NCBI GenBank assembly: GCA_025965155.1
Contig: JAOPXN010000005.1
Location: 1 to 50,974 of the forward strand
Reading direction: 5' to 3'
DNA length: 50,974 nt
Origin: Propionibacteriaceae bacterium
Lineage (GTDB): Bacteria; Actinomycetota; Actinomycetes; Propionibacteriales; Propionibacteriaceae
The notes under the pieces were generated by a model, which had not been told where the DNA came from, did no database searches, and worked only from the letters and a program-made list of their open reading frames with translations. Position 1 is the first letter of the stretch. Each line of letters starts with the position of its first letter. Below are positions 21,722 to 45,786 of this stretch, in pieces. A program made the position numbers and the translations under genes.

Positions 21722-22794
21722 CCGCGCCGACCGCGACGCCGGTGGTCGTGGTGGTCGGCGCCGGTCTGGTGGGGGCGTCGATCGGCTGTGCCCTGACCGC
21801 CCGCGGCATCCCCGTCCATCTGCGTGACCAGAAGCCCTCGCACGCCCTGGTTGCCGCTGAGCTCGGCGCCGGCACGGTCGAACCGCCGGTCGAGCACGAC
21901 GTCACCTTGGTGGTGGCCGCCGTGCCCCCGAACGCCTTGCCCGGCGTCATCCGCGATGCGCTGGTCAGGTACCCCGGGGCGACCGTGACTGACGTCGGCT
22001 CGGTGAAGGCGGGGGTGCTGGCCGCGTTGTGGGACTCGGGCCTGGAGCTGGAGCGCTACGTCGGGTCGCATCCGATGGCCGGCTCACAGCATTCCGGGCC
22101 ACTCACCGCCCGGGCCGACCTGTTCGAGGACCGCACCTGGGTGATCACCCCCCACCGCCGGTCCGCGCCCGCGTCCGTCGCCGCCGTCGCCGCGATGGTT
22201 CAGGCATGCCGCGCCCGGCAGGTGATCATGGACGTCGACGACCACGACGCGGCCGTCGCCCGGGTGTCGCACCTGCCGCACCTGATGTCTGTCCTGATGG
22301 CCGGCCACCTCAACTCCGTGCCGGCCGAGCATTTGGTGCTGGCGGGCCAGGGGCTGCGTGATGTGACCCGGGTGGCTGGCAGCGATCCCGAGCTGTGGGA
22401 GCAGATCCTCGGGGCGAACTCGGCCGCTGTGCTGTTGGAGCTCCGTTCCGTGCAGGACCGGCTGGATCGGGTCATCAAGGCAGTCGAAAGCCCGGGCAGT
22501 GGTGAGCTGCAGGCGCAGCTGTGCCTCGGCGTCGAAGGGACCAGGCGGATCCCGGGCAAGCATGGCGCGACCCAGGTGGCGTACACCCAGGTGGTGGTCG
22601 AGATTCCCGACGCCCCGGGGGCGCTGGGGCGGTTGTTCGCGCTGGTGGGCGACGCCGGGGTCAATGTCGAGGACATCTCGATCGAGCACGATCAGGTCCG
22701 CCAGGTTGGCTACCTCGCCCTCTCCGTCGCCCCGGACCAGGCTCCCGGCCTGACCGCGGCGATGACCGCTCACGGTTGGTCGGTCCAACCCTGA
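21718..22794 (+). CDS. tyrA: prephenate dehydrogenase with C-terminal ACT domain
   Basis: TyrA oxidatively decarboxylates prephenate to 4-hydroxyphenylpyruvate in tyrosine synthesis. The 358-residue protein has an NAD-binding Rossmann start [17 protein letters not shown], the substrate-binding [13 protein letters not shown] near residues 103-115, a helical dimerisation domain, and from about residue 285 an ACT domain ([19 protein letters not shown], then [10 protein letters not shown]) that would bind an amino acid for feedback control. The GTG start overlaps the prcA stop by four bases, so a biosynthetic operon is physically chained to the proteasome operon. cmk follows with its own -10 box. 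Confidence 0.92.
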
Positions 22795-27234: not shown

Positions 27235-27283
27235 GTAAAAGGCCATGTCTCAATCCGAGACAAATCATTTTCAAGGGGGAATG

Positions 27284-28465
27284 ATGGTTAGTTTTGGCAT
27301 GCACAATCGCGGTAATCCCGAGGCTCGGGGCCCGGATGCGATGGTGCGGAAGTCAAGCCGTTCGGTAGCGATGCGGTCGTTGGCCGCAGGCTCGCTGGTG
27401 ACCGCTGCGTTGGTAGCGCCGGTCTCTTTATCGGCGCAGCCGGCGAGTGCAGCAGTGACGGTAGGGTCGAACATCACCGTCTTCCCGAACCGGGACATGG
27501 TTTCCGCGGTCGGTTACCAGGTGGGGGAACAGCTCACCGTGGAGGTGGTTCGGAACGGACTGGTCGTGGGGACGACGTCGGGTCCGGCGGCCACGTTCGG
27601 ACAGCCGGGAAAGGAAGAGGTCGGGCTCGAGGTAAACCACGGACCAGCAGGCGCCCCACAACCGGGCGACTGCTGGACGGGCGGTACACCCGACATCGTT
27701 TCCGGGGACGTCGTTCGGGTCACCAGCGCGCGGGGCGTGGACAGCACCACGGTGAATGGCGTCAACTTCACCGGCGTTCGTCCGACACAGGTTGGTAACA
27801 GCGTCGTTGTCTCGGGCACCGTGACAGCCGGCAGCGCCCTGACCGTCGAGCTTCGACGCGACAAGCCCGCACCTCGGGTCCGGCGCGACCTCGTTCCGGT
27901 GGTTAATGGCACTCAGTGGACGGCGACGTTCGTACCTGCGGCCGCCGGGGAACTAGACATCGCGCTGAACCAGGCAGACTGGAGAGCGGTGGTCGACCTT
28001 GGTGCCGAGACGACGTTATCCGAGATGGGTGAGCTGGGCGGCGCCGCATTGGGTTGCCCACCCGGTGCTGCACCGGCGCCACCAGCTCCGCCACTTCCAC
28101 CTCCGCCGGCTCCACCCCTGCCAGTTCCACCGCCGCCGGCGGCCGATCCGGCACCGACGGTGAGAAGCAAGAGCCCTGGCGCTAGTGCAACAAGGGTCAC
28201 CCGGGGGGCTAACGTCTCCGCCACCTTCAGCGAGTCGGTCACCGGCGTGAGCCGTACGACCTTCACCGTCAAGAGCGCAACGGCCAGCGCAACCGCACCG
28301 GTTGTCTCCGCGTCCTTGACCCGCACCGGCAATCGGTGGACTCTCAACCCCACAAGGGATCTGGCAGCTAATACCAAGTACACCGTGACCTTGACGGGTG
28401 GTATTCGCGACTCGGCGGGCCAGGCCCTGGCGAGCACCTCGTGGAGTTTCACAACCCGCCGATAA
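27284..28465 (+). CDS. secreted protein with C-terminal bacterial Ig-like (SbsA/Big_5) domain
   Basis: The 393-residue product has a signal peptide (basic KSSRS then AAGSLVTAALVAPVSLS, probable cleavage after QPASA), an N-terminal region with ITVFPNRDMVSAVG and CWTGGTPDIVSGDVVRVT that is recurrent in secreted actinobacterial proteins, a middle beta-rich segment (WTATFVPAAAGELDIAL), a proline-rich linker near residues 260-285, and a final Ig-like domain ending WSFTTRR of the SbsA type. It has no sortase motif or C-terminal membrane helix, so it is probably released or loosely wall-bound. Start ATG 27284 follows GGGGGA and aligns with the duplicate; ATG 27341 is possible. Function unknown. Confidence 0.75.
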   Translation: MVSFGMHNRGNPEARGPDAMVRKSSRSVAMRSLAAGSLVTAALVAPVSLSAQPASAAVTVGSNITVFPNRDMVSAVGYQVGEQLTVEVVRNGLVVGTTSGPAATFGQPGKEEVGLEVNHGPAGAPQPGDCWTGGTPDIVSGDVVRVTSARGVDSTTVNGVNFTGVRPTQVGNSVVVSGTVTAGSALTVELRRDKPAPRVRRDLVPVVNGTQWTATFVPAAAGELDIALNQADWRAVVDLGAETTLSEMGELGGAALGCPPGAAPAPPAPPLPPPPAPPLPVPPPPAADPAPTVRSKSPGASATRVTRGANVSATFSESVTGVSRTTFTVKSATASATAPVVSASLTRTGNRWTLNPTRDLAANTKYTVTLTGGIRDSAGQALASTSWSFTTRR

Positions 28466-32109: not shown

Positions 32110-33819
32110 CTACCGAGCCCGCCTGTGCCGCAGGGCGCGGATCCGGCGGGCCATCTCGAAGGCGCGTGGGCGCGCCACCACCCTGCGGATCCTCGCCAGC
32201 GCGAGCTCGGTCGGAGCAGGCTGCCGTTGCCACCTCAGCGCGACGTTACCGTGCCGGGTGCGGTACACGACCAGCTCGTTCCGGCCGCTCCGACAGCTGG
32301 CACCCCGGGCCGTCTCGGGCGCCGCCGGCGTACCGACGTCCTCGGGCCACCTCAGTCGGGCCGTGCTGACCGTGACCCCGCCCAGCTGGCCTTCCACGAT
32401 CACGTTCCAGGAGGACATCACCCCCGTCGACTGACGGGTGCCGCGCACCCGGCGGCCGCCTTCAGCGAGGGCAGTTGGCTCCAGGTCCAGCCGCAGTCGG
32501 CGTGCCGGGTACGGCGCGGCGAGCAGCTCAACGGTCGTCGGTGCCTGCCGCTGCTGCGCCAGCACGTGGATGCTGTCCCAGGGGGCGCGGGCAGGTGGGT
32601 GGAGCTCCAGCTCCAGCTCGACCGACCCCCCTTTCGGATCCAACGCGGTCAGGGTCGGACTCAGCGAAAAGGAACTGGTGACGTGCCGGAGCGCCGACGG
32701 CAGGATCCAGTTCAGCCGGGAGCCCAGGTCGTAGCTCAGCACCCCGTCCGCGACGGTGTACGCCAGCGGCGCCGCCAGCCGGCGGTTGAGCTCAAGGAGA
32801 TCGGCGACGGTTCCGGCTCGGGCTACCGCCAAGCGGAGCCGCTTGCGGTCGTTGACCTTCTTCAGATGCCGATCCGTGAGGTACGGCAGCACCTCCGCCT
32901 GGATTCGGCGCAGGAAGGTGCTCTGCTCGTCCGCAGACGCGTTCAGGAACGGGTAGTGCAGGCCTGAGGGGAGCGTGGACAGCAGCACCCGTTCGAACAT
33001 CGCATCGCGGCGCGGCCCGGGCTCGGTATGGGCCACGATCAGCGACGCGACCCGCGTCGTGGTCAGCTCCTTGTTCTTCAGCGACTGAGTTCGGCTGGAG
33101 AGGTTGGTGCCGGCCGGGCTGGAGTGGCGGTGGTAGTAGTCGTAGTCGCCGAGGACCGTGACCCGGCGGGCCGTGAACAGACAGCTGGCCACGAAGACCT
33201 GGTCCTCTCCCTGCACCATGTCTTCGGGAAACTCCAGCTGGGTGTCGGTAATGAGGGACCGGCGGAACAGCTTCTGTGGCGCCAGGTTGCTCCACACCTT
33301 GTCCATCACCAGATCCGCATCGATGGCGGTCCGTGACGGCGATCGCCGTGCCCCTGATCTGTGCGGATCTTCCCCGCCTGCCTGGCCACCGATATGAACT
33401 GTCCGGCCGACTACCACGTCACAGGAGTAGGCGTCAGCGGTGCTGACCATCCGCTGCAACGCCTCCTCGCCAAGGTAGTCGTCGGCGTCATGGAAGAACA
33501 CGTAGCGGCCGGTCGCCACCCTCAGCGCCTTGTTCCGGCCGACGCTCGGTGTGCCGGAGTTCGGCTGGTGGAAGATCTGGAGTTGGGGCCACCCGGCCGC
33601 ATGCCCGACCAGGTACTCCCAGGTGCCGTCGGTCGATCCGTCGTCGACCACCAGCACCTCCAGCTCGTCGGCGTCCAAGGTCTGCCGCGCCAGGTGCTCA
33701 AGTGCGACCCGGAGCAGCTCAAGACTGTTGTACGTCGGGATGACGACACTGACGGCAGGAACTCGTCCGCCCGCGGGGTGGCTGGACGTGCCGTCGCCGG
33801 AGAGGCCGGTGTCCGGCAT
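32110..33819 (-). CDS. GT2 glycosyltransferase with long C-terminal domain (wall polymer decoration)
   Basis: The 569-residue protein begins with a classic GT-A fold: SVVIPTYNSLELL, nucleotide-binding VVDDGSTDG (D59/D60), QPNSGTPSVGRN, and the metal motif HDADD (D111, D113, D114). From about residue 330 a beta-rich C-terminal region follows, as in the teichoic-acid glycosyltransferases TarS/TarP, which decorate polyribitol phosphate with sugars. No membrane helix is present. ATG 33819 has a strong AGGAGGT about 5 nt upstream on the minus strand. It lies 45 bp after the Bcs1-like gene on the same strand, probably one operon. The sugar donor and acceptor are inferences from context. Confidence 0.78.
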   Translation of the reverse strand: MPDTGLSGDGTSSHPAGGRVPAVSVVIPTYNSLELLRVALEHLARQTLDADELEVLVVDDGSTDGTWEYLVGHAAGWPQLQIFHQPNSGTPSVGRNKALRVATGRYVFFHDADDYLGEEALQRMVSTADAYSCDVVVGRTVHIGGQAGGEDPHRSGARRSPSRTAIDADLVMDKVWSNLAPQKLFRRSLITDTQLEFPEDMVQGEDQVFVASCLFTARRVTVLGDYDYYHRHSSPAGTNLSSRTQSLKNKELTTTRVASLIVAHTEPGPRRDAMFERVLLSTLPSGLHYPFLNASADEQSTFLRRIQAEVLPYLTDRHLKKVNDRKRLRLAVARAGTVADLLELNRRLAAPLAYTVADGVLSYDLGSRLNWILPSALRHVTSSFSLSPTLTALDPKGGSVELELELHPPARAPWDSIHVLAQQRQAPTTVELLAAPYPARRLRLDLEPTALAEGGRRVRGTRQSTGVMSSWNVIVEGQLGGVTVSTARLRWPEDVGTPAAPETARGASCRSGRNELVVYRTRHGNVALRWQRQPAPTELALARIRRVVARPRAFEMARRIRALRHRRAR

Positions 33820-33864
33820 GGGCTACCTCCTGAGTCGGCTACAACCCATCCTGCCAGTGGGCAG

Positions 33865-35274
33865 CTACCCGTTGGCCAACGCCGCCGGACCGTCCTCGCG
33901 CCGAATGTCGATCACGTGTCCGGTCTGCCCGGACAGCAGCACGCCGAGGGACTGCCGAGCCACCTCGACCGACTCCAGCAGCGTCCCGGCCGGCTCATCG
34001 CCGAAGGCCTTGGTGCGCATCGGCGTACCGGTGCGTTCGGGGTTCACGCAGTTCACCCGGATCCCGTCGCCGGTCCACTCGTCGGCCAGCGCCTGGGTCA
34101 AGTTCACCACCGCCGCCTTCGCCGAGGAGTACAGCGAGTAGCCAGAGCGGCCACGGGTGTAGGAGGAGGAGGTGAACAGCAGCAACGAGCCCTTGCTCGC
34201 CGCCAGATGGGGGTAGAACTCCTGAGCAATGAAGACAGGCGCCAGGTAGTTGACCTCGGTCGCGGAGTAGATGGTCTCGTCGCTGGTGTCGGCCAGCGCG
34301 CCGCGGGGCAGTACACCGGCGGTGTTGACCACGAAGTCGACCCGGCCGGTGTCGGCCAGCACCGACTGGGCGGCCGCGGCGACGTCCTCCCGCCGTTCGA
34401 CATGGGTGTTGGTGGAGGACCGGGCGAAGGTACGCACGGTGGCGCCATACCGTCGGGCGAGCTCGGCGATGTCACCGCCGATCCCGTACGAGCCGCCGAA
34501 GATCACCATCGTTTTGCCCTGCAGCCGAGACCGGAACTGCTCCTCGGAGAGCGCATCGGGCTTGTCGGCCGAGGTCAGCTGGAATAGCTTGTCGGCGATG
34601 TAGACGTCGATCGGCTCGGTCACCTTCATGTTGCGTTCGTGCCCGGGCACCACCGCGATCGGCACCTCCGGCAGATACCGCAGCACCACGGTGCAGTCGT
34701 CGGTAGCGGTGAAGTCTGGATCCTTGGCCGCGTTCGCATAGGCCTCACGGATCGTCGACAGCCGGAACGACTGGGGAGTCTGCCCGCGGCGCAGCAGATG
34801 CCGAGGCAGCACGTCGGCCATCGCGGCCGAGTTCGCGTCGACCTGGATCACCGTGTCGGCGGAGGGGATGGCGGTGTCAACGGCCCGGTGGGTCTGCAGC
34901 GCCTCCACATTCGCCGCGATGATGGTCTGGGACACCAGAGGCCGGACCGCGTCATGCAACAAGACGTTGCACTCCTCCTCACCCAGTGCAGCCAAGGCGG
35001 CCGCCGTCGTGTCGTTGCGCGTACCGGCCCCCTCCAAGATCTTGCTCACCTTCGAGTAGTTGCCGCCGCGAACGATCGCCCGCACCTCGTCGAGGTAGCC
35101 GGGTGCCATCAGCACCAGGATCTCGTCGATCAACGGCGACTGCTGCATCACCGCAATCGTGTGCTCGATGATGGGCTTCCCGGCGATCTTGATCAGCTGC
35201 TTGGGGATGTTCAGCCCCACCCGGGTGCCGGTGCCGCCGGCCAGGATGACGGCCACGTTACGCAGTTTGCTCAC
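33865..35274 (-). CDS. bifunctional cytidylyltransferase / short-chain dehydrogenase (Bcs1-like, CDP-ribitol synthesis)
   Basis: Residues 1-230 are an IspD/TarI-type cytidylyltransferase: AGGTGTRVG (12-20), IPKQLI, and DAVRPLV near 108-114. Residues 255-469 are a short-chain dehydrogenase with the cofactor loop GGSYGIGG (260-267), the NTAG strand, catalytic serines near 369-371 and YxxxK (Y382, K386). This fusion is known from capsule and teichoic-acid loci (Haemophilus Bcs1), where the dehydrogenase reduces ribulose 5-phosphate and the other half makes CDP-ribitol from the product and CTP. The 469-residue length fits. GTG 35274 is set by TACAGT 6 nt upstream. It diverges from the GT2 gene at 35341, giving the locus a shared control region. 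Confidence 0.85.
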   Translation of the reverse strand: MSKLRNVAVILAGGTGTRVGLNIPKQLIKIAGKPIIEHTIAVMQQSPLIDEILVLMAPGYLDEVRAIVRGGNYSKVSKILEGAGTRNDTTAAALAALGEEECNVLLHDAVRPLVSQTIIAANVEALQTHRAVDTAIPSADTVIQVDANSAAMADVLPRHLLRRGQTPQSFRLSTIREAYANAAKDPDFTATDDCTVVLRYLPEVPIAVVPGHERNMKVTEPIDVYIADKLFQLTSADKPDALSEEQFRSRLQGKTMVIFGGSYGIGGDIAELARRYGATVRTFARSSTNTHVERREDVAAAAQSVLADTGRVDFVVNTAGVLPRGALADTSDETIYSATEVNYLAPVFIAQEFYPHLAASKGSLLLFTSSSYTRGRSGYSLYSSAKAAVVNLTQALADEWTGDGIRVNCVNPERTGTPMRTKAFGDEPAGTLLESVEVARQSLGVLLSGQTGHVIDIRREDGPAALANG

Positions 35275-35280
35275 CGGGCG

Positions 35281-35286
35281 ACTGTA
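35281..35286 (-). promoter_or_regulatory. -10 element TACAGT, leaderless CDP-ribitol synthase gene
   Basis: On the minus strand TACAGT is followed by 6 nt and GTG at 35274. It lies in the 66-bp divergent gap shared with the GT2 gene on the plus strand. Confidence 0.6.
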
Positions 35287-35340
35287 TCGGTCGGGCAAGG
35301 CGGCATCGGCGCGGTGAGGTGATGCTGAAATGCTGGGGGC

Positions 35341-36918
35341 ATGGTGAAGGTCAGCGTGGTGGTACCCGTTTACAACCCGGGCGAGTACGTCAGGGCGTGT
35401 GTAGCGGGGCTGCTGAGCCAGACGCTGCCCGCCACGGAGTTCGAGGCGATCTTCGTCGACGACGGGTCGACCGACACCAGTCCGGCCTACCTCGACGCGG
35501 TGGCGGCGGAGCATCCGAACATCCGGGTGATCCACCAGCCGAACTCCGGGTGGCCCGGACAGCCACGCAACGTCGGGATCGAGGCGGCTGTGGGCGAGTT
35601 CGTCTTCTTCTGCGACCACGACGACTGGCTCGGCGAGGAGGCGCTGCAGCGGATGTACGACTTCGCCGTCGCGACCGAGTCCGACATCGTGATCGGAAAG
35701 ATGGCCGGCATCCGCCGGGGGGTGCCCGAGGTTCTCTTCGCATCCACCCGCAGCGGGGTTTCGGTCGCCGACGCTCCGGTGATGGACAGCCTCACCCCGC
35801 ACAAGCTCTTTCGGCGCTCGTTTCTGAATCGGCATCAGATCCGGTTCCCGGAAGGAAAGCGACGGCTTGAGGACCACCTCTTCGTGGTGACCGCGTATCT
35901 GTCCACCGACCGCATCGGTATCTACAGCGACTACACCTGCTACTACCACATCCGCCGGGAAGACGTCGCGAACGCAGCCTTCAGCCAGATCAGCTGGCCT
36001 TCCTACTTCCAGAACCTGGAGGAGGCCATTGAGGTGGTGGTCGAGCGAACCGAGCCAGGGCCGCTGCGCGACCAGATTTTCAAGCGCTGGCTGCTGGTGG
36101 AGATGGTAGGTCGCCTTCGCGGGAAGCACTTCACCAAACTGGACCCGGACAGCCGCAAGGAGATCTTCGAGGCCGCCCACGGCACAGCCTCCAAGTACTT
36201 CGGAGACGGGGTCGCGGCGTTGTTGCCGCTGCTGCCACGCATCGTCGGCCGAGCCATCATCAGCGGTGACTTCGACGCCCTGAGCCGGCTGGCCGAGCAG
36301 GAGGCGCGCTGGCACGGCCGCGGGGCGCTTACCGCGGCCGGTTGGGTCGGTCGCCGGCTCCAGGTGTCCGGGGCGGTGGAGTTCTTCGACCGGGAAGCGG
36401 CCGACCCTGCCGTCCAGCGCTTCACCGACCTGGTCGGGGAGCTGCCCGCGGAGGAGCTGACCTCCGAGCTCGCCAAGCTGAGGCTTTCCGTCCGGCTCAC
36501 CGAACGAGGGTCGGGCCAAACCTGGACCGTGCCCGCCGTGACCAGGCGGCTCGGGCTGGCGACCGCGTTCACCGCCACCATCGACATCACCACGGCGGCC
36601 GGCGGCGGCCCGCTGCCGGCCGGCATCTGGGACATCGGCACCGAGCTGGTGGGGTTCGGGCTCCGGATTCGACAGAAGCCGGCGTTGGTGAGGCCGCTGT
36701 CCCAAAAGCCTCCCGTGCTGCGCAGGTCGCCTGCCGGCGAGCCGGAGGTTGCGTTGTACGTCGTCAAGAAGGTCCACTCGGCGGCACTCGACATCGGGCT
36801 GGTGCTCCATCCCGAGCTGTCTCGGCGTGGTGAGCCGACGGCAACAGACCGCCGCGGACGTGCCCGTAGAGCGGTGGGCAGGTTCGGCCGTTCCGTCAGC
36901 CGCCGCTTCGGTCTCTGA
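35341..36918 (+). CDS. GT2 glycosyltransferase, TarS-like
   Basis: The 525-residue protein has an intact GT-A domain: SVVVPVYNPGEYV, FVDDGSTD (D40/D41), QPNSGWPGQPRN, and CDHDDW (D92, D94, D95). It then has the TPHKLFRR and RRLEDHLFV segments shared with teichoic-acid glycosyltransferases, and a C-terminal beta-rich region from about residue 340 that may serve oligomerisation, ending in a very basic tail. It is clearly a paralogue of the minus-strand GT2 at 32110-33819 (same HQPNSG and LGEEALQRM). ATG 35341 has only a weak G-rich site upstream. Likely role: adding a sugar to the ribitol-phosphate polymer. The sugar is unknown. Confidence 0.78.
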   Translation: MVKVSVVVPVYNPGEYVRACVAGLLSQTLPATEFEAIFVDDGSTDTSPAYLDAVAAEHPNIRVIHQPNSGWPGQPRNVGIEAAVGEFVFFCDHDDWLGEEALQRMYDFAVATESDIVIGKMAGIRRGVPEVLFASTRSGVSVADAPVMDSLTPHKLFRRSFLNRHQIRFPEGKRRLEDHLFVVTAYLSTDRIGIYSDYTCYYHIRREDVANAAFSQISWPSYFQNLEEAIEVVVERTEPGPLRDQIFKRWLLVEMVGRLRGKHFTKLDPDSRKEIFEAAHGTASKYFGDGVAALLPLLPRIVGRAIISGDFDALSRLAEQEARWHGRGALTAAGWVGRRLQVSGAVEFFDREAADPAVQRFTDLVGELPAEELTSELAKLRLSVRLTERGSGQTWTVPAVTRRLGLATAFTATIDITTAAGGGPLPAGIWDIGTELVGFGLRIRQKPALVRPLSQKPPVLRRSPAGEPEVALYVVKKVHSAALDIGLVLHPELSRRGEPTATDRRGRARRAVGRFGRSVSRRFGL

Positions 36919-37034: not shown

Positions 37035-40000
37035 ATGACCCGTCCTCACATTGCCCGGCTGGACAAGGTGGCTCGTTGGGTCGCACGTCCGGCCATCCGG
37101 GCCGTCCGCCGGAAGGTCCGTAAGCTGACCGGCGCCGTCCGGCCGGTGTCGCAGAAGCCGGCGAAGACGCCGCTGCTGAGCGTTGTCGTCGCCGTGTCAC
37201 CCTCGGACCGCTATCTCCAGGAGTGTCTGGGTAGCCTCTTGACCCAGTCGCTGAACAGGATTGAGGTCATCCTGGTCGGCACCCCGGATTTCGTCCTGCC
37301 GACGTCGGTCAACGACCGGCGGGTCCGGGTGCTGCGCCGGGCCGCCGGCGGCCCGGCGGCTGCCCGGAACTTCGGCGCCGCCGCAGCCGCGGGGACCTAC
37401 CTCACCTTCGTCGAGGCCAGTGACACCGTGCCGCCGGACGCCTTCGCCCAGATGACGCGGGCGCTGCAGCGGAGCGGGTCAGACTTCGTCGTCGGAGCCT
37501 TGCACCGGGTACGCAACGGCCGCGGCACCAAGCCCGCGTGGGTCAACAGCGTGCACGCCCTCGACCGGATCGGCGTCAACGTCGACGAGTTCCCGGTCGC
37601 CATGCAGGACGTGGTGCTGTTCAACCGGGTGTTCCGGCGAACCTTCTGGCGGGAGAGCATCGGGCAGCTCGCGGAAGGCTCAGCGAGCGGCGATCTGGTG
37701 GCCACGGTCACCGGATACATCCGCGCCAAGTCCTTCGACGTGCTCAGGGCCATCACCTACCAGTCACAGCTGCGCGCAGACAACGCCTCCATCCCGCAGG
37801 AGCGGTACAACCGCGCGCTGCTGGACGACCGCATCGCCGCTTTGGAGGGAGCCTGGCAGGTGGTTTCGGCGGAGGCGTCCGCTGCTGTCGCCGGCGCCTG
37901 GCTGGGTGGCGTCATCGACACTGATCTCGGCGCCTTCCTTGAGCAGGCCGCGGCAGCCGATGACGCCTACCGGGAGCGTCTGCAGCGGGCCTGTCGGTCC
38001 TTCATCGCCGAAGCCGGACCGCTGGTCTGGCCGCATGTCAGGATCGATCGGCGGCTCCGGGTCTGGCTCGGAGCCGAGGGTCGCTGGACCCCGCTGGAGC
38101 ACCTGGTCGAGTTCTTCCGGCTCAACGGGTCGATCCCGCCGACTCGGGTGGTGGACGGAAGCGTGATTGCGGACCTGCCGATCGTCGACGAGCTGGTGCC
38201 GGACGTCCCTGCCTTCTGCCTCGAGCTGGCCGAGAGCCAAACCGCCCTGTCGGCGTGCGTGCAGCGGGCTTACTTCGCCTCCGACGGCCGGCTGGTCGTG
38301 GACGGCTGGGCCTTCATCCGCGGCGTTGACCTGGCTACCTCGGTTCCGACGCAGCACGCGGCCCTGGTCGACTCGCAAACCGGTGAGGAGGTGCCGGTAT
38401 CGGTCCAGCAGCGCGTGGACCCGGCCGCAACCTACTGGGCCAACCATCTCAACCAGTCGGTGGACACGTCGGCGTTCCAGCTGCGGATCGATGTGGACGC
38501 CCTGCCTCCGCCGGATCCGACCCGTGGACCGCGCCGCTGGTCGCTGCAGATGACCGTGGTAGCCCGAGGCATTGAACGCAGCGGCGTGGTCCGATCGGTG
38601 GTCAGGTCCGGCAGCGCGCTACGGATGCGAGCCCGCCCGTTGGCCGGGCCGCTCGACCCGGTCCGGATTGTCCCGGTAATCGATCCAGGGCTCGGTTTCA
38701 CCGTCCAGGCGCGACCAGACCGGCTGCGGGCTGCAGATCTCGCCTGTGCCGACGGTCGTCGGCTGAGTGGCCGGATCCGGGTCATCAACCCGATAGCCGC
38801 GCCCCTAGTCCATGTACTGGCGACTTCGTCGAGCGTGGGGACTTCGTCGGGTGGAACGGTGACCGCCGAGCTGCGCGAAGGCGACGACGGCTGGTTCCGT
38901 TTCGACCTTGACCTGCCGGCGGGTGAACCCAACCTCGTCTGGACCTTCCGCGCGCTCGACGAGAACGGCACCAAGCACCGCGTGTCGTGGCCCGACGAAG
39001 CATCAGCAGGGGTCAGTGCGCAGGCGCGCGACGCCTCAGTGGCGTGGCTCCGATCGGCCCGAGGCTTCTGCGATATCCGTACCGACCTGTGCAGCTTCGA
39101 GGCAGAGTCGGTCGCAGTGGGCTCGGACGCGGTGACGATCGATGTCTGGGCATCCGGCCTGACCGAGGAGCAGCTCGGCACCGCGGTCCTGCGCAGCCAC
39201 CGCACCTCGGTCGTGGCCATGAACGTCCGCCAGCTTGGCCCGGACCGGTACCGGCTGACCTTCCCGACGCGGACCTCCGTCTGGGGCGGGCCGTCGCTGC
39301 CGCTCGCCTCGGGCGCATACTCCGTGGGGCTGGAGGACACGCCCCGTGCCTCGTCCGGCGCCCCGACTCCGCTGGGAGTCGTCTGCGGTGTCACCGACGC
39401 GTTCTTGGAGTGCTGCCCCATCGAGGGGCGCACCGAGCTCCACGGGTTCTCCGTCGGGCGCGCTTCAGGCGCGGACCGGCTGGTGGTGACGCTCCGGCCA
39501 CCGCTGGCCGACGACGAGATCGGCCGGCGTGCTCAGCGGCGGCTGGCGGACTGGTACCAGGAGACTGAGTTCGAACCCAGTGACGCGGTGCTGTTCCAGT
39601 GCTATCGGGGCGAGTTCGCCACCGACAGCCAGCTAGCGATCCACCAGGAGCTGTACCGGCGAGGCTCGCACCTGGAGCTGCGCTGGGGGGTCTCGGACCT
39701 GTCGGTATCGTTGCCCGAGGGCACCGTACCGCTGCTGATCGGCAGCCGGGCCTGGTACGAGGCGGTGGCCAGTTCCCGCTACCTCTGCCAGAACATCGAC
39801 TTCGACCGGTTCTTCCGGAAACGCCCCTACCAGCGCTACCTGCAGACCTTCCACGGCTACCCGTTCAAGTCGATGGGGATCTCCCTATGGCGGGCCCAGG
39901 GCAGGACCGCGGAGGTCATCGACGGCGAGTGCGAGCGACGCAACGCCGACTGGGACTCGATCCTGGTGCCGGCCCAGTTCTGCGAGCCGATGTACCGGCA

Positions 40001-40706
40001 GGAGTACCGCTACCAGCATGAGGTGCTTGTCACCGGCTACCCCCGCGACGACCTGCTGGTGACAGCCGAGCCCGAGACAGCGCGGAACGAGGTGCTGAAG
40101 CGCATCGGGGTGAACACCGACAAGACGGTGGTGCTGTACGCCCCCACCTGGCGCGACACCGTGGCCACCGGCGCGTTCCGCGCCAAGCTGTTCGCCGAGC
40201 TCGATCTGGACCGGCTGACCTCGGAACTGGGGACCGACTACGTCATCTTGGTCCGCGGCCACAACTACAACCTGCGCGAAGGCGAGCAGGTCCGGTCTGC
40301 CGCCGTCGTGGACGTTACGTCCTATCCGGAGATCAATGACCTGATCCTGGCTGCCGATGTGGCACTGCTGGACTATTCGTCGCTCCGGTTCGACTGGCTG
40401 CTGACCGGCAAACCCGCCTTGTTCTTCGTACCGGACCTCGCCGACTACCTGAGCGCCCGTACCGCCCTGTTCGAGTATGGCCCGACGGCACCCGGACCGT
40501 TGCTTCGGACGACCGAGGAGGTGGTTGACGCCTTGCAGCGGGTTGATCAGGTCGGAGCCGAGTACGCAGCCGACCGCGCTGCCTTCAACGCACGGTTCCA
40601 CGGGCTTCATGACGGGCACGCGACCAGCAGGGTGGTGGATCAGTTCTTCGGCACCGACGCAGGCCCGGGTCCCCAGGTCCCGGATCCAACCAGCGACAAG
40701 CCATAG
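37035..40706 (+). CDS. fusion of a degenerate GT2 domain to a TagF-type polyol-phosphate transferase
   Basis: This 1223-residue protein has a basic N-terminus (1-45), a GT2-like domain (about 48-330), a long beta-rich middle (about 340-860) and a C-terminal CDP-glycerol/CDP-ribitol phosphotransferase domain. The transferase signatures are intact: QTFHGYPFK with H940, VRGHN with H1076, and DYSSLRFDW at 1113-1121. These match the two catalytic histidines and the DYSS motif of TagF/TarL, which polymerise teichoic-acid main chains at the inner membrane face. The GT2 domain looks inactive: LVGTPD (80-85) replaces VVDDGS and VEASD (126-130) replaces DxDD. No membrane helix is seen. Polymerase or primase role is inferred; ribitol as substrate rests on the neighbouring Bcs1-like gene. 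Confidence 0.85.
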   Translation: MTRPHIARLDKVARWVARPAIRAVRRKVRKLTGAVRPVSQKPAKTPLLSVVVAVSPSDRYLQECLGSLLTQSLNRIEVILVGTPDFVLPTSVNDRRVRVLRRAAGGPAAARNFGAAAAAGTYLTFVEASDTVPPDAFAQMTRALQRSGSDFVVGALHRVRNGRGTKPAWVNSVHALDRIGVNVDEFPVAMQDVVLFNRVFRRTFWRESIGQLAEGSASGDLVATVTGYIRAKSFDVLRAITYQSQLRADNASIPQERYNRALLDDRIAALEGAWQVVSAEASAAVAGAWLGGVIDTDLGAFLEQAAAADDAYRERLQRACRSFIAEAGPLVWPHVRIDRRLRVWLGAEGRWTPLEHLVEFFRLNGSIPPTRVVDGSVIADLPIVDELVPDVPAFCLELAESQTALSACVQRAYFASDGRLVVDGWAFIRGVDLATSVPTQHAALVDSQTGEEVPVSVQQRVDPAATYWANHLNQSVDTSAFQLRIDVDALPPPDPTRGPRRWSLQMTVVARGIERSGVVRSVVRSGSALRMRARPLAGPLDPVRIVPVIDPGLGFTVQARPDRLRAADLACADGRRLSGRIRVINPIAAPLVHVLATSSSVGTSSGGTVTAELREGDDGWFRFDLDLPAGEPNLVWTFRALDENGTKHRVSWPDEASAGVSAQARDASVAWLRSARGFCDIRTDLCSFEAESVAVGSDAVTIDVWASGLTEEQLGTAVLRSHRTSVVAMNVRQLGPDRYRLTFPTRTSVWGGPSLPLASGAYSVGLEDTPRASSGAPTPLGVVCGVTDAFLECCPIEGRTELHGFSVGRASGADRLVVTLRPPLADDEIGRRAQRRLADWYQETEFEPSDAVLFQCYRGEFATDSQLAIHQELYRRGSHLELRWGVSDLSVSLPEGTVPLLIGSRAWYEAVASSRYLCQNIDFDRFFRKRPYQRYLQTFHGYPFKSMGISLWRAQGRTAEVIDGECERRNADWDSILVPAQFCEPMYRQEYRYQHEVLVTGYPRDDLLVTAEPETARNEVLKRIGVNTDKTVVLYAPTWRDTVATGAFRAKLFAELDLDRLTSELGTDYVILVRGHNYNLREGEQVRSAAVVDVTSYPEINDLILAADVALLDYSSLRFDWLLTGKPALFFVPDLADYLSARTALFEYGPTAPGPLLRTTEEVVDALQRVDQVGAEYAADRAAFNARFHGLHDGHATSRVVDQFFGTDAGPGPQVPDPTSDKP

Positions 40707-40750: not shown

Positions 40751-43700
40751 ATGGCGGCGGCAACGCCTAGCGCCGAAGACCGCAGTTCTGCGTCCCAGCA
40801 GGCCCGCAGTTCTGCGTCCCAGCAGGCACTGTGTGTCGGGTCCGAGGCACTGCTGGAGATCGGCCTGATACTGCTCGGACTTGCCTCCCTGGCCGCCGCG
40901 CTCAGCGGCGCGTCGCTGATGGCCGCCGTGCTGGTTACCGTCGCGGCAGCCGCTTTCGTCGGGCGCGTCTTGCTGTTGCCCCGGGTCAGCAGAGGCTGGC
41001 TCGGCAGCTCTGGCGGCGCCCGCGCCCTGTTGGTGCTGGCCACCGCGGCCAGCTTCAACAACAGTGGATCGCTGACCGGCGGGGAGGTCGCCGCACTGGT
41101 CGCGTTCCTCGGTGCCGTCGGTCTGATCGTGCTGGAGCCGCATCTGGACCGGTTGACCGGAGCGCGGCTCACTGTCGTGGCTCACCTGCCCGGCGTTGAC
41201 CCGGTAGCTACGCTGCCCGACCGCAGCCGGGTGGTCGTCCTAGGTGGCGTGCTGTCCACCGTGGCCGGCGCCTGGTCGGCGGTGCTCGGCCTGCCCGGAT
41301 GGCTGTGGCTGGGTCTGGTCGTCCTGGCCGCGGCTCCAGTGCTGGCCTGGGGACTGGCCGGCCGCCGGCGCGTCGCCGCCGGCATCAGGCTGGAGGAGCA
41401 GCTGGACAGGGCTGTGGCCGACTACGCGCCGGAGTACATCCTCTACACCGCGCGACCCGACGATGCGTCCTATCAGGTGCTGATGTGGCTGCCGTACCTC
41501 CAGCGGGCAGGTCGCCGGTTCATCATTGTCACCCGGGAAGCGGTCCCGGCCATCGCCCTCGCCGCCCAGACCGACGTTCCGGTGATCCAGCGGCGGCGGC
41601 TGTCCGATCTCGACACGGTGGTGACTCCCGCGACTCGGGCCGCCTTCTACGTGAACGCCTCGTCCGGCAACGGGGCCCTGGTCCGGTACCACCAGCTCAC
41701 CCACATCTACCTCGGTCACGGCGACTCAGACAAGCCGCCCTCCTACAACCCCACCCACGCCATGTTCGACCGGATCTTCGCTGCCGGGCCGGCAGCCATC
41801 CGACGCTACGCCCAGCATGGGGTCAGCATCTCCCTCGACAAGTTCGACGTGGTCGGGCGGCCGCAGGTGGAGGGCGTCCAGCCGGCTCAGCGTCCGATTA
41901 CCGAGGTCGAGCGACCGGTTGTGCTGTACGCGCCCACCTGGCGCGGTCACGTCGAGGAGACCCTGCTGCACTCGCTGCCCGTGGGGGACCGGATTGTCCG
42001 GGCGCTGCTGAAACGCGACGTCGAGGTCATCTTCCGCCCCCACCCGTTCAGCTACGACTTCGAGGAGGACCGGGAGTCGATCCGACGGATCCACCGGCTG
42101 CTGTCCACGGACGCCGAGCAGACCGGTCGGCAGCATCGTTGGGGCGACGCCGCCGAACGGGACCTAGGCATCCTCGACTGCATCAACGCCTCCGACGCCA
42201 TGATCTCCGACGTCTCCAGTGTCGTCTCGGACTACCTGTTCTCCACCAAACCGTTCGCGATGGTTGCTGTCTCGACCGGAGTCCAGGATTTCGCGGAGCA
42301 GTACCCGATCGCCCGCGCCGCCTATGTGCTGGACGGCCACCTCGCGAACCTCGAACAGATCCTGGATTGGATGCTGCGCTGCGACCCGCTGTCGGCCCGC
42401 CGGATCGAGGTAAAGGCCGAGTACCTGGGAGACTTCCCGGCGGATCGCTACTCCGACGTCTTCGTCGACGCCGTGCGCCGCTGGGTGGATGAACCTCCCC
42501 CCGTGAGTGGCGGCGGGGTCGAGACGTCCGAGGACACCGAGCCGCCGACCGGTGTGTCGCTGCGGACCCAGGTCGCCGCCCTGGTCCGGGACGCGGCGAT
42601 CAGCGGGGCGGCAGCCCTGGCGGCGGTGCTGGCGCTCGCCGGCGCGCCGGCGGCAGCGGCCGTCGCTGCGGTGGTCAGCGTGGTTGCCATCGTCTGGTCG
42701 CGTCGACGGATGCTGACCCAACCGGAGGAGTGGACCCCGTTGCTGGGCAGCAACGCGATCGGGCGCATTCTGCTGGTGGCGTCGCTGCCCGTCGCCGCCG
42801 TGTATGTTGCGCCGGCCGACGTCAACCGGGTGCTGCTGGCGGCCGCAGTGCTCGCCGCGGCCATCGTGGCCGAGCGGACCATCCGGACGGCGTTGACTCG
42901 GCAAAGCCTGGTGACCTCTGGGCTGCCCGGGCTGGAGACGACAGTCAGCTCGCTGGCGCCGTGGGGGACCACCACGATCATCAGCTGGCTGGTCATCGTC
43001 GCCGGCTGGCTGGTGCTGGCGAGCGGGATCTCGACGGCGGTGCTGATCGGGTTGGCTCTGCTGCAGCTGCTGGCCTTCGTTGAGCCGTGGGTCAAGGCGC
43101 TGATCCGGGTCCACCACTTCGTCAGGGCGGAGGAACGGCTGCGCGAGACCGTGGCCGCGTACCGACCGGAGTTCGCCGTCTACTTCGCCGCCGCCGTGGG
43201 CGCCGGCTACCAGGTCGGGATGTGGCTGCCGTATCTGAAGAGGCTGGACCGACGCTTCATCATCATCACCCGCACGGTGGCGATGCTCCGCCAGCTTGAG
43301 CCGTTGGTGGACGTACCGGTGATCTTCCGGCCCACCCTGCGGAGCCTGGAGGACGTCACCGTCGACTCGATGACGACGGCGTTCTATGTCAACAACGCCG
43401 CCCGCAACACCCACTTCATCGAGCGGCGCCAGCTGAGCCACATCTGGCTCAACCACGGCGACTCGGAGAAGCCTGCCTGCTACAACCCGGTGCACGCGAT
43501 CTACGACCGCATCTTCGCTGCTGGTCAAGCCGGGATCGACCGCTACGCCCGGCACGGAGTCCACATTCCACCGGACAAGTTCCGCATCGTTGGACGGCCG
43601 CAGGTGGAGGCGATCAGCAAGGCGCGGAGCCCGATCGGTGAGATTGAGTCGCCGACGGTCTTGTACGCGCCCACCTGGCGAGGGCCGTTCGCGGACTCCC

Positions 43701-44242
43701 GGGTGTACTCGCTGCCGATCGGCGAGCAGATCGTGACAGCTCTGCTGGAGCGGGGTGCCACGGTGATCTTTCGTGCGCACCCCTTCAACTACCGGTTCGC
43801 CGACGCGGCCGCCACCATCGCCAGCATCGGCCGGCTACTGGAGGAGGACCGGGCCCGAACGGGCCGGCCGCACCTGTGGGGCGCGGCGGCTGAGACGGAG
43901 CTGACCGTCGAGGAGTGCTTCAACGCCTCGGACGCGATGATCGCCGATGTGTCCGCGGTGGTGTCTGACTATCTCCAGTCCGACAAGCCGTTCTCCATCG
44001 TCTCGGTGGGGCGCACCCCGGACCAGCTGCTTGCCGATGCACCCGCAGCGAAGGCCGCCTACGTGCTCTGCGAGGACCTGTCGAACCTCGAGGCCGTGCT
44101 GGATCAGCTGTTGATCATCGACTCGTTGGGCCGGGTACGAAGTGGCACGCGGATCTACTACCTGGGCGACTTCCCGCCCGAACACTATGCCGACGGCTTC
44201 ATCGCCGCCGCGCGCGACGTGGTCGACGCGGGACGTCCATGA
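40751..44242 (+). CDS. membrane protein with two tandem TagF-like transferase units
   Basis: This 1163-residue protein is an internal duplication. Each half has an N-terminal block of about four to five hydrophobic helices followed by a soluble transferase unit. Matching landmarks are spaced exactly 579 residues apart: GHGDSDK (H323) with NHGDSEK (H902), and FRPHPF (H431) with FRAHPF (H1010); both units have YAPTWRG and VGRPQVE. The 108-residue gap between the two histidines is the same in each half. FRxHP and YAPTWR tie it to TagF-type CDP-polyol phosphotransferases, but HGDSD replaces HGTPLK and SDVSSVVSDY replaces TDYSS. ATG 40751 follows AGGGGCCAGG. It overlaps the next gene by ATGA. Substrate uncertain. 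Confidence 0.8.
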   Translation: MAAATPSAEDRSSASQQARSSASQQALCVGSEALLEIGLILLGLASLAAALSGASLMAAVLVTVAAAAFVGRVLLLPRVSRGWLGSSGGARALLVLATAASFNNSGSLTGGEVAALVAFLGAVGLIVLEPHLDRLTGARLTVVAHLPGVDPVATLPDRSRVVVLGGVLSTVAGAWSAVLGLPGWLWLGLVVLAAAPVLAWGLAGRRRVAAGIRLEEQLDRAVADYAPEYILYTARPDDASYQVLMWLPYLQRAGRRFIIVTREAVPAIALAAQTDVPVIQRRRLSDLDTVVTPATRAAFYVNASSGNGALVRYHQLTHIYLGHGDSDKPPSYNPTHAMFDRIFAAGPAAIRRYAQHGVSISLDKFDVVGRPQVEGVQPAQRPITEVERPVVLYAPTWRGHVEETLLHSLPVGDRIVRALLKRDVEVIFRPHPFSYDFEEDRESIRRIHRLLSTDAEQTGRQHRWGDAAERDLGILDCINASDAMISDVSSVVSDYLFSTKPFAMVAVSTGVQDFAEQYPIARAAYVLDGHLANLEQILDWMLRCDPLSARRIEVKAEYLGDFPADRYSDVFVDAVRRWVDEPPPVSGGGVETSEDTEPPTGVSLRTQVAALVRDAAISGAAALAAVLALAGAPAAAAVAAVVSVVAIVWSRRRMLTQPEEWTPLLGSNAIGRILLVASLPVAAVYVAPADVNRVLLAAAVLAAAIVAERTIRTALTRQSLVTSGLPGLETTVSSLAPWGTTTIISWLVIVAGWLVLASGISTAVLIGLALLQLLAFVEPWVKALIRVHHFVRAEERLRETVAAYRPEFAVYFAAAVGAGYQVGMWLPYLKRLDRRFIIITRTVAMLRQLEPLVDVPVIFRPTLRSLEDVTVDSMTTAFYVNNAARNTHFIERRQLSHIWLNHGDSEKPACYNPVHAIYDRIFAAGQAGIDRYARHGVHIPPDKFRIVGRPQVEAISKARSPIGEIESPTVLYAPTWRGPFADSRVYSLPIGEQIVTALLERGATVIFRAHPFNYRFADAAATIASIGRLLEEDRARTGRPHLWGAAAETELTVEECFNASDAMIADVSAVVSDYLQSDKPFSIVSVGRTPDQLLADAPAAKAAYVLCEDLSNLEAVLDQLLIIDSLGRVRSGTRIYYLGDFPPEHYADGFIAAARDVVDAGRP
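40781..40828 (+). repeat. 24-bp in-frame tandem repeat
   Basis: Two adjacent 24-bp copies differ only in the last base and encode SSASQQAR-type octapeptides near residues 11-26 of the duplicated transferase, just before its first membrane helix. It looks like a recent slippage or duplication in a flexible cytoplasmic tail. Confidence 0.85.
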
Positions 44243-45786
44243 GAAACCTGATCAGGCGGGGCTCTGCACTGGTGCTACCCCAGGTGCCGCTCGCCATCGC
44301 CGTCGTTCTGATGCTTGGGCTGATCAGCAGACCGCGGGCCGAGACACCGGCCGCGGGCTCTGTCTGGATGGCGGCCGTCGCCGCCGGCCTGGTGATGCTG
44401 GCCTTGCCAGTGGCGGAGCGGGGGGCGGCGAAGGAACCGCTCCAGGTAGTGCACCTGCCGGGCTACCGCGAGCCGACCCGTCCGCCAAGACCCACCTGGG
44501 TACGGGTCGGGACTGGCATCTTCATCGCCGCCCTCGCCCTGGCTGCATCCTTCCCTCCGGTGTGGGCCACGGTGATCGTGGTGGGAATTACCGCTGTGCT
44601 GTTGTCGGTGGTGCTCGCCCTCGGGTTCCTCCGGGCCCGCGGCCGGCCGGCGGAGCGAGCCCGGATCACCGCGGCGCTGACCAGGTACGGACCTCGGTTC
44701 GTTGTCTACACCGGGCGCCGCAACGACGCCAGCTACCAGCTGCGGATGTGGCTACCGACACTGGAGAAGCTCGGCGTTCCCTACATCGTGGTGGTCCGGC
44801 ACCCGGCCGCCGTTTCCATGGCCGCGAAGCTGACCCAGGCTCCGATTATCTGCTGCCCGACTGTGGCTGACCTCGACTGTGTCGTGGTGGACTCGATCAA
44901 GGTCGCCTTCTACGTCAACATGATCGCCGAGAACACCAACTTCGTGCTGTACCGGACGATGACCCACGTCTACCTGGGCCACGGCGACTCCGACAAGGAA
45001 CTCTCCGCCCACCCGGCTCACGCCATGTTCGACAAGATCTTCGTCGCCGGGCCGGCCGCCCGGGAGCGGTACGCTCGCGGCGGCGTGCTGATCCCTGACC
45101 ACAAGCTGGTTGTCGTCGGACGACCTCAGCTGGTGGCTGCGGAGCCCGCCCGGCAACCGGTCCGCGATGCCTCACCGGCCCGGGTGCTCGTCGCGCCGAC
45201 CTGGCGCGGGTACAACAACAAGACAACCTTGAGCTCGCTGGCGGTCACTCCTCGGCTGGTGCAGGCGCTGATCGAGCGAGGTGCTGAGGTGATCTTCCGG
45301 CCCCACCCGTTCAGCTGGCTGGGCCGGTCCGAGCTGGCCTCCATCCGCGCGACGGACGAGCTGCTGCAGGCCGATCGGGCCGCCACCGGTCGAGCGCATG
45401 TGCTGGCCGCGGAGCAGCGCAGCCGAGACATCATCGAGGTGTTCAACGACAGTGACGCCATGATCACCGATGTGGGTAGCGTGCTGGTGGACTACTTCGT
45501 CACCGGCAAGCCGTACGCGGCCGTGCTGCCGGACATCGATGATGAGGCCGCCACTGCGCTGTTCCCCACCACGGAGGCTGCCTACGTGCTGCCGATCGCC
45601 GACCTGCGCGAGCCGAACCCGTCGGTCCTGGACAAGGTTCTGGGGGATCTGCTGCGCGACGATCCGCTCGCCGGCCGACGAGCCGAGGTGACGCGGCACT
45701 ACCTCGGTGACAGTCCGCGCGACGACGAACCGTTCCTGGATGCGGTCCGCGCTCTGCTCAGCTGTGGACCCCGAGGGCGCTGTTGA
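44239..45786 (+). CDS. third membrane-anchored TagF-like transferase unit (single)
   Basis: The 515-residue protein is a single copy of the unit doubled in the gene before it: an N-terminal membrane block (VPLAIAVVLMLGLIS, VWMAAVAAGLVMLAL and a long paired helix near residues 92-135), then GHGDSDK with H248, GRPQLV, APTWRG and FRPHPF with H356. The 108-residue spacing between the two histidines equals that of both neighbouring units. The DYSS-like motif reads TDVGSVLVDYF. ATG overlaps the previous stop by four bases, so the three units are made together. Its last 29 bases overlap the 3' end of the opposing pabB-pabC gene. Likely role: membrane-bound polyol-phosphate transfer in wall polymer synthesis; this is inference. 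Confidence 0.78.
   Translation: MRNLIRRGSALVLPQVPLAIAVVLMLGLISRPRAETPAAGSVWMAAVAAGLVMLALPVAERGAAKEPLQVVHLPGYREPTRPPRPTWVRVGTGIFIAALALAASFPPVWATVIVVGITAVLLSVVLALGFLRARGRPAERARITAALTRYGPRFVVYTGRRNDASYQLRMWLPTLEKLGVPYIVVVRHPAAVSMAAKLTQAPIICCPTVADLDCVVVDSIKVAFYVNMIAENTNFVLYRTMTHVYLGHGDSDKELSAHPAHAMFDKIFVAGPAARERYARGGVLIPDHKLVVVGRPQLVAAEPARQPVRDASPARVLVAPTWRGYNNKTTLSSLAVTPRLVQALIERGAEVIFRPHPFSWLGRSELASIRATDELLQADRAATGRAHVLAAEQRSRDIIEVFNDSDAMITDVGSVLVDYFVTGKPYAAVLPDIDDEAATALFPTTEAAYVLPIADLREPNPSVLDKVLGDLLRDDPLAGRRAEVTRHYLGDSPRDDEPFLDAVRALLSCGPRGRC

Follow-up and report, generated by a model that had tools for sequence, protein, structure and literature searches.

What might three consecutive TagF-like units do, two of them fused into a single protein? 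This question is raised by a locus of a Propionibacteriaceae bacterium (assembly GCA_025965155.1, contig JAOPXN010000005.1, positions 1 to 50,974; this whole stretch of 50,974 nucleotides is referred to as the window). Wall teichoic acid synthesis has been worked out mainly in Firmicutes. The actinobacterial units considered here are designated A, B, and C:

40751 to 42490, plus strand: unit A, the first half of a 1163-residue protein, with membrane segments and a TagF-like catalytic domain (alignment, PF04464, helices, hydropathy).
42491 to 44242, plus strand: unit B, the remaining half of that protein, with separate membrane segments, stop codon included (alignment, PF04464, helices, hydropathy).
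44239 to 45786, plus strand: unit C, a separate 515-residue protein whose start overlaps the stop of A-B by ATGA (alignment, PF04464, model).

With moderate confidence, we regard A, B, and C as non-equivalent membrane-bound TagF-like transferases of wall teichoic acid synthesis that probably depend on cytidine diphosphate (CDP)-ribitol. Each site would have a transfer of its own, whether in linkage, priming, extension, or branching, instead of all repeating a single one.

The A-B protein, encoded at positions 40751-44242 of the plus strand, consists of two homologous membrane-anchored units, residues 1-580 and 581-1163. A and B align without gaps at an offset of 579, with 192 of 374 residues identical (51%, E 2e-120); 193 of 471 residues are identical between A and C (41%, E 2e-98) and 157 of 378 between B and C (42%, E 7e-82). 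These similarities are far beyond chance, and the self-alignment bears out the head-to-tail duplication proposed in an initial annotation of the locus, whose coordinates, protein lengths, histidine pairs, and ATGA overlap (44239-44242) were also correct. The motif histidines of A-B form the pairs H323/H902 and H431/H1010, each at +579, and those of C are H248 and H356. The claimed exact period of 579 residues holds over the catalytic domains, whereas the membrane parts of A and B align only with gaps. In L010 and L011 the overlap between the stop of A-B and the start of C is GTGA, at the same place. The 3' end of C (45758-45786) overlaps a convergent chorismate-binding/aminotransferase gene by about 29 nucleotides.

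Assignment of the units to the TagF-like family was likewise upheld. PF04464 exceeds its curated cut-off of 22.1 bits in both proteins (82.7 and 41.3 bits) and matches 59 of the 60 units in our alignment (A1, which holds 60 of 61 units). A profile built from the units retrieved only Cps3D, TarL, and TagF from the PDB (five distinct sequences, up to E 1), mainly through the donor-binding half and with Cps3D as the best match. In a comparison with five canonical domains of the TagF-like kind from this genome, it gave 97% probability, again in the C-terminal half. All 64 aligned units retain both motif histidines; the second lies inside the profile match, and the first was equated by eye via its HGxxxK context, outside the scored alignment. 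The first motif reads HGDSDK in A and C and HGDSEK in B; its counterpart in three canonical proteins from this genome is HGYPFK or HGTPLK. A-B, with two TagF-like units that both carry the motif histidines, would have more than one site per chain, as anticipated. All things considered, the most fitting description of the units is that of a TagF-like branch that has diverged and is anchored in the membrane.

The two histidines are 108 residues apart in all three window units, a constancy from which the initial annotation concluded that the copies look functional. This spacing is common but not universal in the subfamily: it is exactly 108 in 7 of 16 A, 13 of 15 B, 7 of 8 C, and 14 of 25 other units, the remainder ranging from 101 to 119. 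Being common in the subfamily and absent from 9 of 16 A units, it was rejected as special evidence and does not mark the duplication. The corresponding distance is 140 in TagF and, by residue numbers, 130-131 in Cps1B and Cps7D (PMC5974469, available text), and 131-140 in the five canonical domains of the genome, where the motifs were hand-picked.

Hydrophobic segments precede each catalytic domain in the hydropathy profile. Separate membrane helices for each half of A-B, as suggested initially, also appear in its model (pLDDT, the predicted local distance difference test, of 62; six sequences), with six helices before A and six before B at low confidence; the model is poor in the membrane parts. 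In the model of C (pLDDT 81, nine sequences) four N-terminal helices are followed by a domain of the GT-B type, the fold expected of the TagF-like family, and Foldseek matched this model to TagF and TarL at E 1e-8 to 1e-7. An even helix number per unit would place all catalytic domains on one side of the membrane, which would be the cytoplasmic side if the donor is a CDP-polyol. The units have the PF04464 donor-binding half, the GT-B type fold, and the two motif histidines in common with the TagF/TarL polymerases (PDB 3l7i, 8va1). Unlike these, they carry N-terminal membrane helices and an N-terminal half missed by the Pfam profile, and A-B has two units per chain.

How old and how widespread is this arrangement? 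A family search with C matched 42 of 147 genomes at E up to 0.001. Fifteen same-genus genomes are listed with a match, and 11 of them have two units in one frame (G000, G018, G041, G074, G098, G107, G114, G125, G130, G135, and G144, where a contig end cuts the second unit); only separate units were seen in G059, G088, G120, and G140. In a tree of 61 units, A (14 rows) and B (13) form separate clades, each with support of 100/99, and the C units (8) form a third clade within the genus (100/100). The tandem extends to other Actinobacteria: at least 14 of 293 genomes of the order sample have two units in one frame, including G455, G463, and G676 of a second family. G455 and G463 were added in a later tree, which has twelve new rows and lacks nine of the first (two duplicates and seven distant single units); the G676 tandem was seen in the order search and is absent from the trees. 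Since the first units of G455 and G463 fall in the A clade (100/99) and the second units in the B clade (100/100), the fusion would either predate the divergence of the sampled families or have moved as a block. In the class sample, 157 of 394 genomes have a unit match, and none of the 150 matches listed contains a same-frame pair outside the order. A plasmid search gave a single match, 33% identical, in a Nonomuraea record. A recent duplication or an assembly artefact was rejected as an origin of A-B, because A and B are separate clades in same-genus genomes, a metagenome-assembled genome, and two second-family genomes. The two-in-one-chain tandem is not unique to the source genome, and A-B is kept in bacteria of the Microlunatus group beside a third copy.

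Variants of the arrangement occur as well. G041 has A-B with no C adjoining, and two further configurations were found at the following positions:

L046, 7048 to 14411, and L047, 7793 to 15513: doubled A-B gene, two in a row (A-B-A-B) with no C beside them (G018, G098).
L051, 7135 to 12447: tandem and single unit of G023, a member of another genus.

The units of G023 group together with a G045 unit, and by this branching its tandem arose separately from A-B. A solitary subfamily unit of G000 (contig C66, 66-2033 of L054) groups with single units of G018 and G041, which by the same kind of evidence constitute a separate conserved single-unit lineage.

The donor question leads to the genes upstream of A-B:

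37035 to 40706, plus strand: protein of 1223 residues with GT2 and full-length PF04464 domains, 44 nucleotides upstream of A-B (Pfam).
35341 to 36918, plus strand: GT2 and TarS_linker protein (Pfam).
33865 to 35319, minus strand: TarIJ-type fusion of a cytidylyltransferase (IspD/TarI type) and a short-chain reductase, putative CDP-ribitol synthase, exact start codon uncertain (Pfam, structure matches).
32110 to 33822, minus strand: second GT2 and TarS_linker protein, open frame (Pfam).

CDP-ribitol synthesis is a likely role of the window TarIJ-type protein, and no more than likely because its cytidylyltransferase half resembles TarI structures about as closely as IspD structures. The linkage between such genes and the units was counted in the 394 class genomes, by comparing the 150 unit places listed with 68 TarIJ places of at least 340 bits (67 genomes); weaker TarIJ places, mostly matches of the cytidylyltransferase half, were excluded. 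A unit lies within 1 kb of 48 of the 68 TarIJ places and within 10 kb of 54, and 53 of 56 pairs within 3 kb are on the same strand. By match coordinates, 0.6 kb separate A-B from TarIJ in G455, G463, and G676; in 10 of the 11 same-genus tandem genomes the two share a contig at a distance of about 6-29 kb. In L092 an ABC-2 membrane gene, an ABC ATPase, TarIJ, and a unit stand in a row, and in L096 an LCP-family gene is near the TarIJ-unit pair. L099 contains L27, one further gene, TarIJ, and a unit whose match is interrupted by about 70 residues. The same set occurs in L100, where about 5 kb separate L27 from TarIJ. The order in L099 is that of SGR_4954, SGR_4956, and SGR_4957 of Streptomyces griseus, in which SGR_4956 is called TarIJ and SGR_4957 TagF, and whose wall polymer contains 1,5- and 1,3,5-linked ribitol-phosphate with terminal glycerol-phosphate (PMC13274773, available text). 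By this gene order, rather than by sequence, SGR_4957 would belong to the unit subfamily; it is a single, non-fused unit, in contrast to A-B. On the strength of the genomic linkage, CDP-ribitol would be the most likely donor of A, B, and C.

Several findings weigh against this reading. In the reverse direction, only 70 of the 150 units listed are within 10 kb of TarIJ (by score, 11 of 17 at 400-600 bits, 16 of 30 at 300-400, 2 of 32 at 250-300, and 41 of 71 at 200-250), and the notion that every subfamily member is linked to TarIJ is untrue. G023 has a tandem and yet no TarIJ match in its genome. The four same-genus genomes with separate units still have TarIJ, at 448 kb (G088) or 902 kb (G120) from the best unit or on other contigs (G059, G140). 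A TagD-like gene is present in the genome below its cut-off (132.9 against 165.4 bits), which keeps CDP-glycerol possible, and ABC2_membrane has no match on the window's contig and four on other contigs of the genome. As to the family itself, the best PF04464 stretches comprise profile positions 192-298 of 367, the donor-binding/C-terminal half only, and neither A-B nor C matches the whole 367-position domain. The TarF/TarL equivalog models of NCBIfam reject the units, C scoring 10.2 bits against the 550 of TarF and A-B being assigned to no family. Finally, Foldseek ranks UDP-N-acetylglucosamine 2-epimerases slightly above TagF for the C model, so that the structural match to TagF was recovered but not as the top one.

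Fold similarity alone is not decisive between epimerase and TagF kinship. The sequence profiles, which were also inspected for a non-transferase family, match only TagF-like proteins; epimerases are absent from the PDB profile matches up to E 1 and from the Pfam matches, which leaves a similarity in fold only. The epimerase reading was rejected.

A rather unlikely explanation, although the strongest of the alternatives, is that the donor is a different one (CDP-glycerol, or a nucleotide sugar that yields hexose-phosphate) and that the units are only located within a ribitol teichoic acid locus. Transfer of glycerol-phosphate or of hexose-phosphate is within the repertoire of TagF-like domains (PMC5974469, available text), and the G023 tandem, the TagD-like gene, and the terminal glycerol-phosphate of the S. 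griseus polymer would all be in line with such a role. Against it stand the 48 of 68 TarIJ places that have a unit within 1 kb, and the distance of 0.6 kb between A-B and TarIJ in three second-family genomes.

Do the three sites perform the same step? Between two species pairs (dS, the synonymous divergence, 0.7-0.9), the ratio of nonsynonymous to synonymous divergence (dN/dS) of the catalytic domains is 0.19-0.21 for A, 0.14-0.19 for B, and 0.26-0.28 for C, B being lowest in both pairs. The catalytic domains are under purifying selection, and together with the universally kept histidines this agrees with the earlier impression that the copies look functional. Around the first histidine each clade has residues of its own, GHGDS then KP-SYNP in A, NHGDSEKPAC in B, and GHGDSDKE in C. 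In the DVSS motif both serines are present in 15 of 16 A units, whereas all 15 B units have alanine at the second serine and all 8 C units have glycine at the first; in 6 of 25 other units the second serine is glycine. These clade-specific residues suggest different substrates or steps for A, B, and C, although they could also mean a weakened site. Because the copies stayed distinct in many species, it is suggested that each does a different step. That A and B instead catalyze the same reaction, the fusion raising only dosage or processivity, is improbable: their overall similarity and shared motifs, and the doubling of the whole A-B gene in G018 and G098, would fit, but the separation of the two clades is older than the split of the sampled families, or than their exchange of the gene, and each clade has conserved residues specific to it. 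Least probable is that one unit, B or C, has weakened or lost catalytic activity and serves only to bind donor, acceptor, or a partner protein, since the DVSS substitutions of B and C, from which A is nearly free, are offset by the retention of both histidines in all B and C units, by the low dN/dS of B, and by the glycine at the second serine in other units too.

Non-equivalent transferases would find their closest parallels in multidomain capsule polymerases and in teichoic acid relays. The initial annotation held that known enzymes of this kind have one catalytic domain per chain. This does not apply to the TagF-like capsule polymerases, in which a TagF-like domain is fused to a glycosyltransferase (PMC5974469); Cps1B, Cps3D, Cps7D, and Bcs3 have, like A-B, several catalytic domains per chain, one kind being TagF-like (PMC5974469, PMC10299916). 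What these combine with the TagF-like domain is a glycosyltransferase or another enzyme, whereas A-B consists of two TagF-like units, and a Pfam scan found no glycosyltransferase domain in A-B or C. No protein with a pair of TagF-like domains on a single chain was met in the available text of the papers cited, and the open-licence PMC literature, as far as accessible to searches for tandem TagF proteins and Microlunatus teichoic acid, yielded nothing on an A-B protein. The neighbor at 37035-40706 is nearer to the capsule-polymerase type than A-B. In the TarB-TarF-TarL relay and among the CpsA transition transferases, PF04464 enzymes act successively on one lipid-linked acceptor (PMC11666461, PMC1458327, available text). 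These are separate proteins, in contrast to the fused A-B, and successive action of A, B, and C is proposed by analogy. The actinobacterial tag cluster of Bifidobacterium bifidum, with two tagB genes, tagGH, and an IspD-type gene, also consists of separate genes throughout (PMC12286996, available text).

In the mechanism we envisage, a CDP-activated donor would supply each of A, B, and C with a polyol-phosphate, probably ribitol-5-phosphate, for transfer at the membrane to a lipid-linked acceptor. The A-B fusion would put two active sites on one chain, in fixed stoichiometry and near the acceptor, and C would be translationally coupled to it. The neighbor at 37035-40706 would be a good candidate for the main polymer synthase, because capsule polymerases are known to pair PF04464 with a glycosyltransferase (PMC5974469). 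Linkage, priming, branching, or end steps could then fall to A, B, and C, as they do to TarB, TarF, or CpsA in known systems (PMC11666461, PMC1458327). Alternatively, a unit itself may polymerise, a role that the initial annotation suggested alongside alternating transfer, since L092, L093, L096, and L098 have one unit by TarIJ and no frame there with a GT2-TagF protein as best match. More tentatively, and with more doubt than confidence, we propose that the roughly twelve-helix A-B protein contains two different ribitol-phosphate transferase sites that act in sequence on a single lipid-linked chain, C providing the third step and the A-B order setting polymer order or branching; such a system might be a fused, membrane-embedded counterpart of the TarB/TarF/TarL relay.

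The remaining surroundings of the locus are as follows. On the other side of A-B-C are pabB and a 5'-3' exonuclease. Among 11 tandem loci (L010, L042-L050, L052), 10 have an exonuclease relative, five a pabB relative, and all except L045 a relative of the GT2-TagF or TarS-like neighbors. TagA (PF03808) has no match in the source genome. A second locus of the source genome, on contig C21 of G000 (8096-30896; L057, L058), has four other PF04464 matches, three frames of which also resemble the TarS-like neighbor; it is probably another teichoic acid or capsule-type cluster. Elsewhere in the window, a Big_5 (bacterial Ig-like) protein at 27239-28462 (plus strand) lies in the stretch of lowest G+C content (61.7%), and a tRNA called by ARAGORN at 21994-22085 (plus strand), with an undetermined amino acid and a four-base anticodon, is inside a long open frame and probably spurious.

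Ribitol-phosphate-type wall polymers of Streptomyces carry the umbrella toxin receptor (PMC13274773, available text). The units described here would represent a membrane-anchored TagF-like branch that is often found beside TarIJ in Actinobacteria and that in one order has been fused into a putative two-site enzyme, forming an ordered A-B(-C) set. If this is true, the division of ribitol teichoic acid priming, extension, and branching among paralogous sites becomes a testable question.

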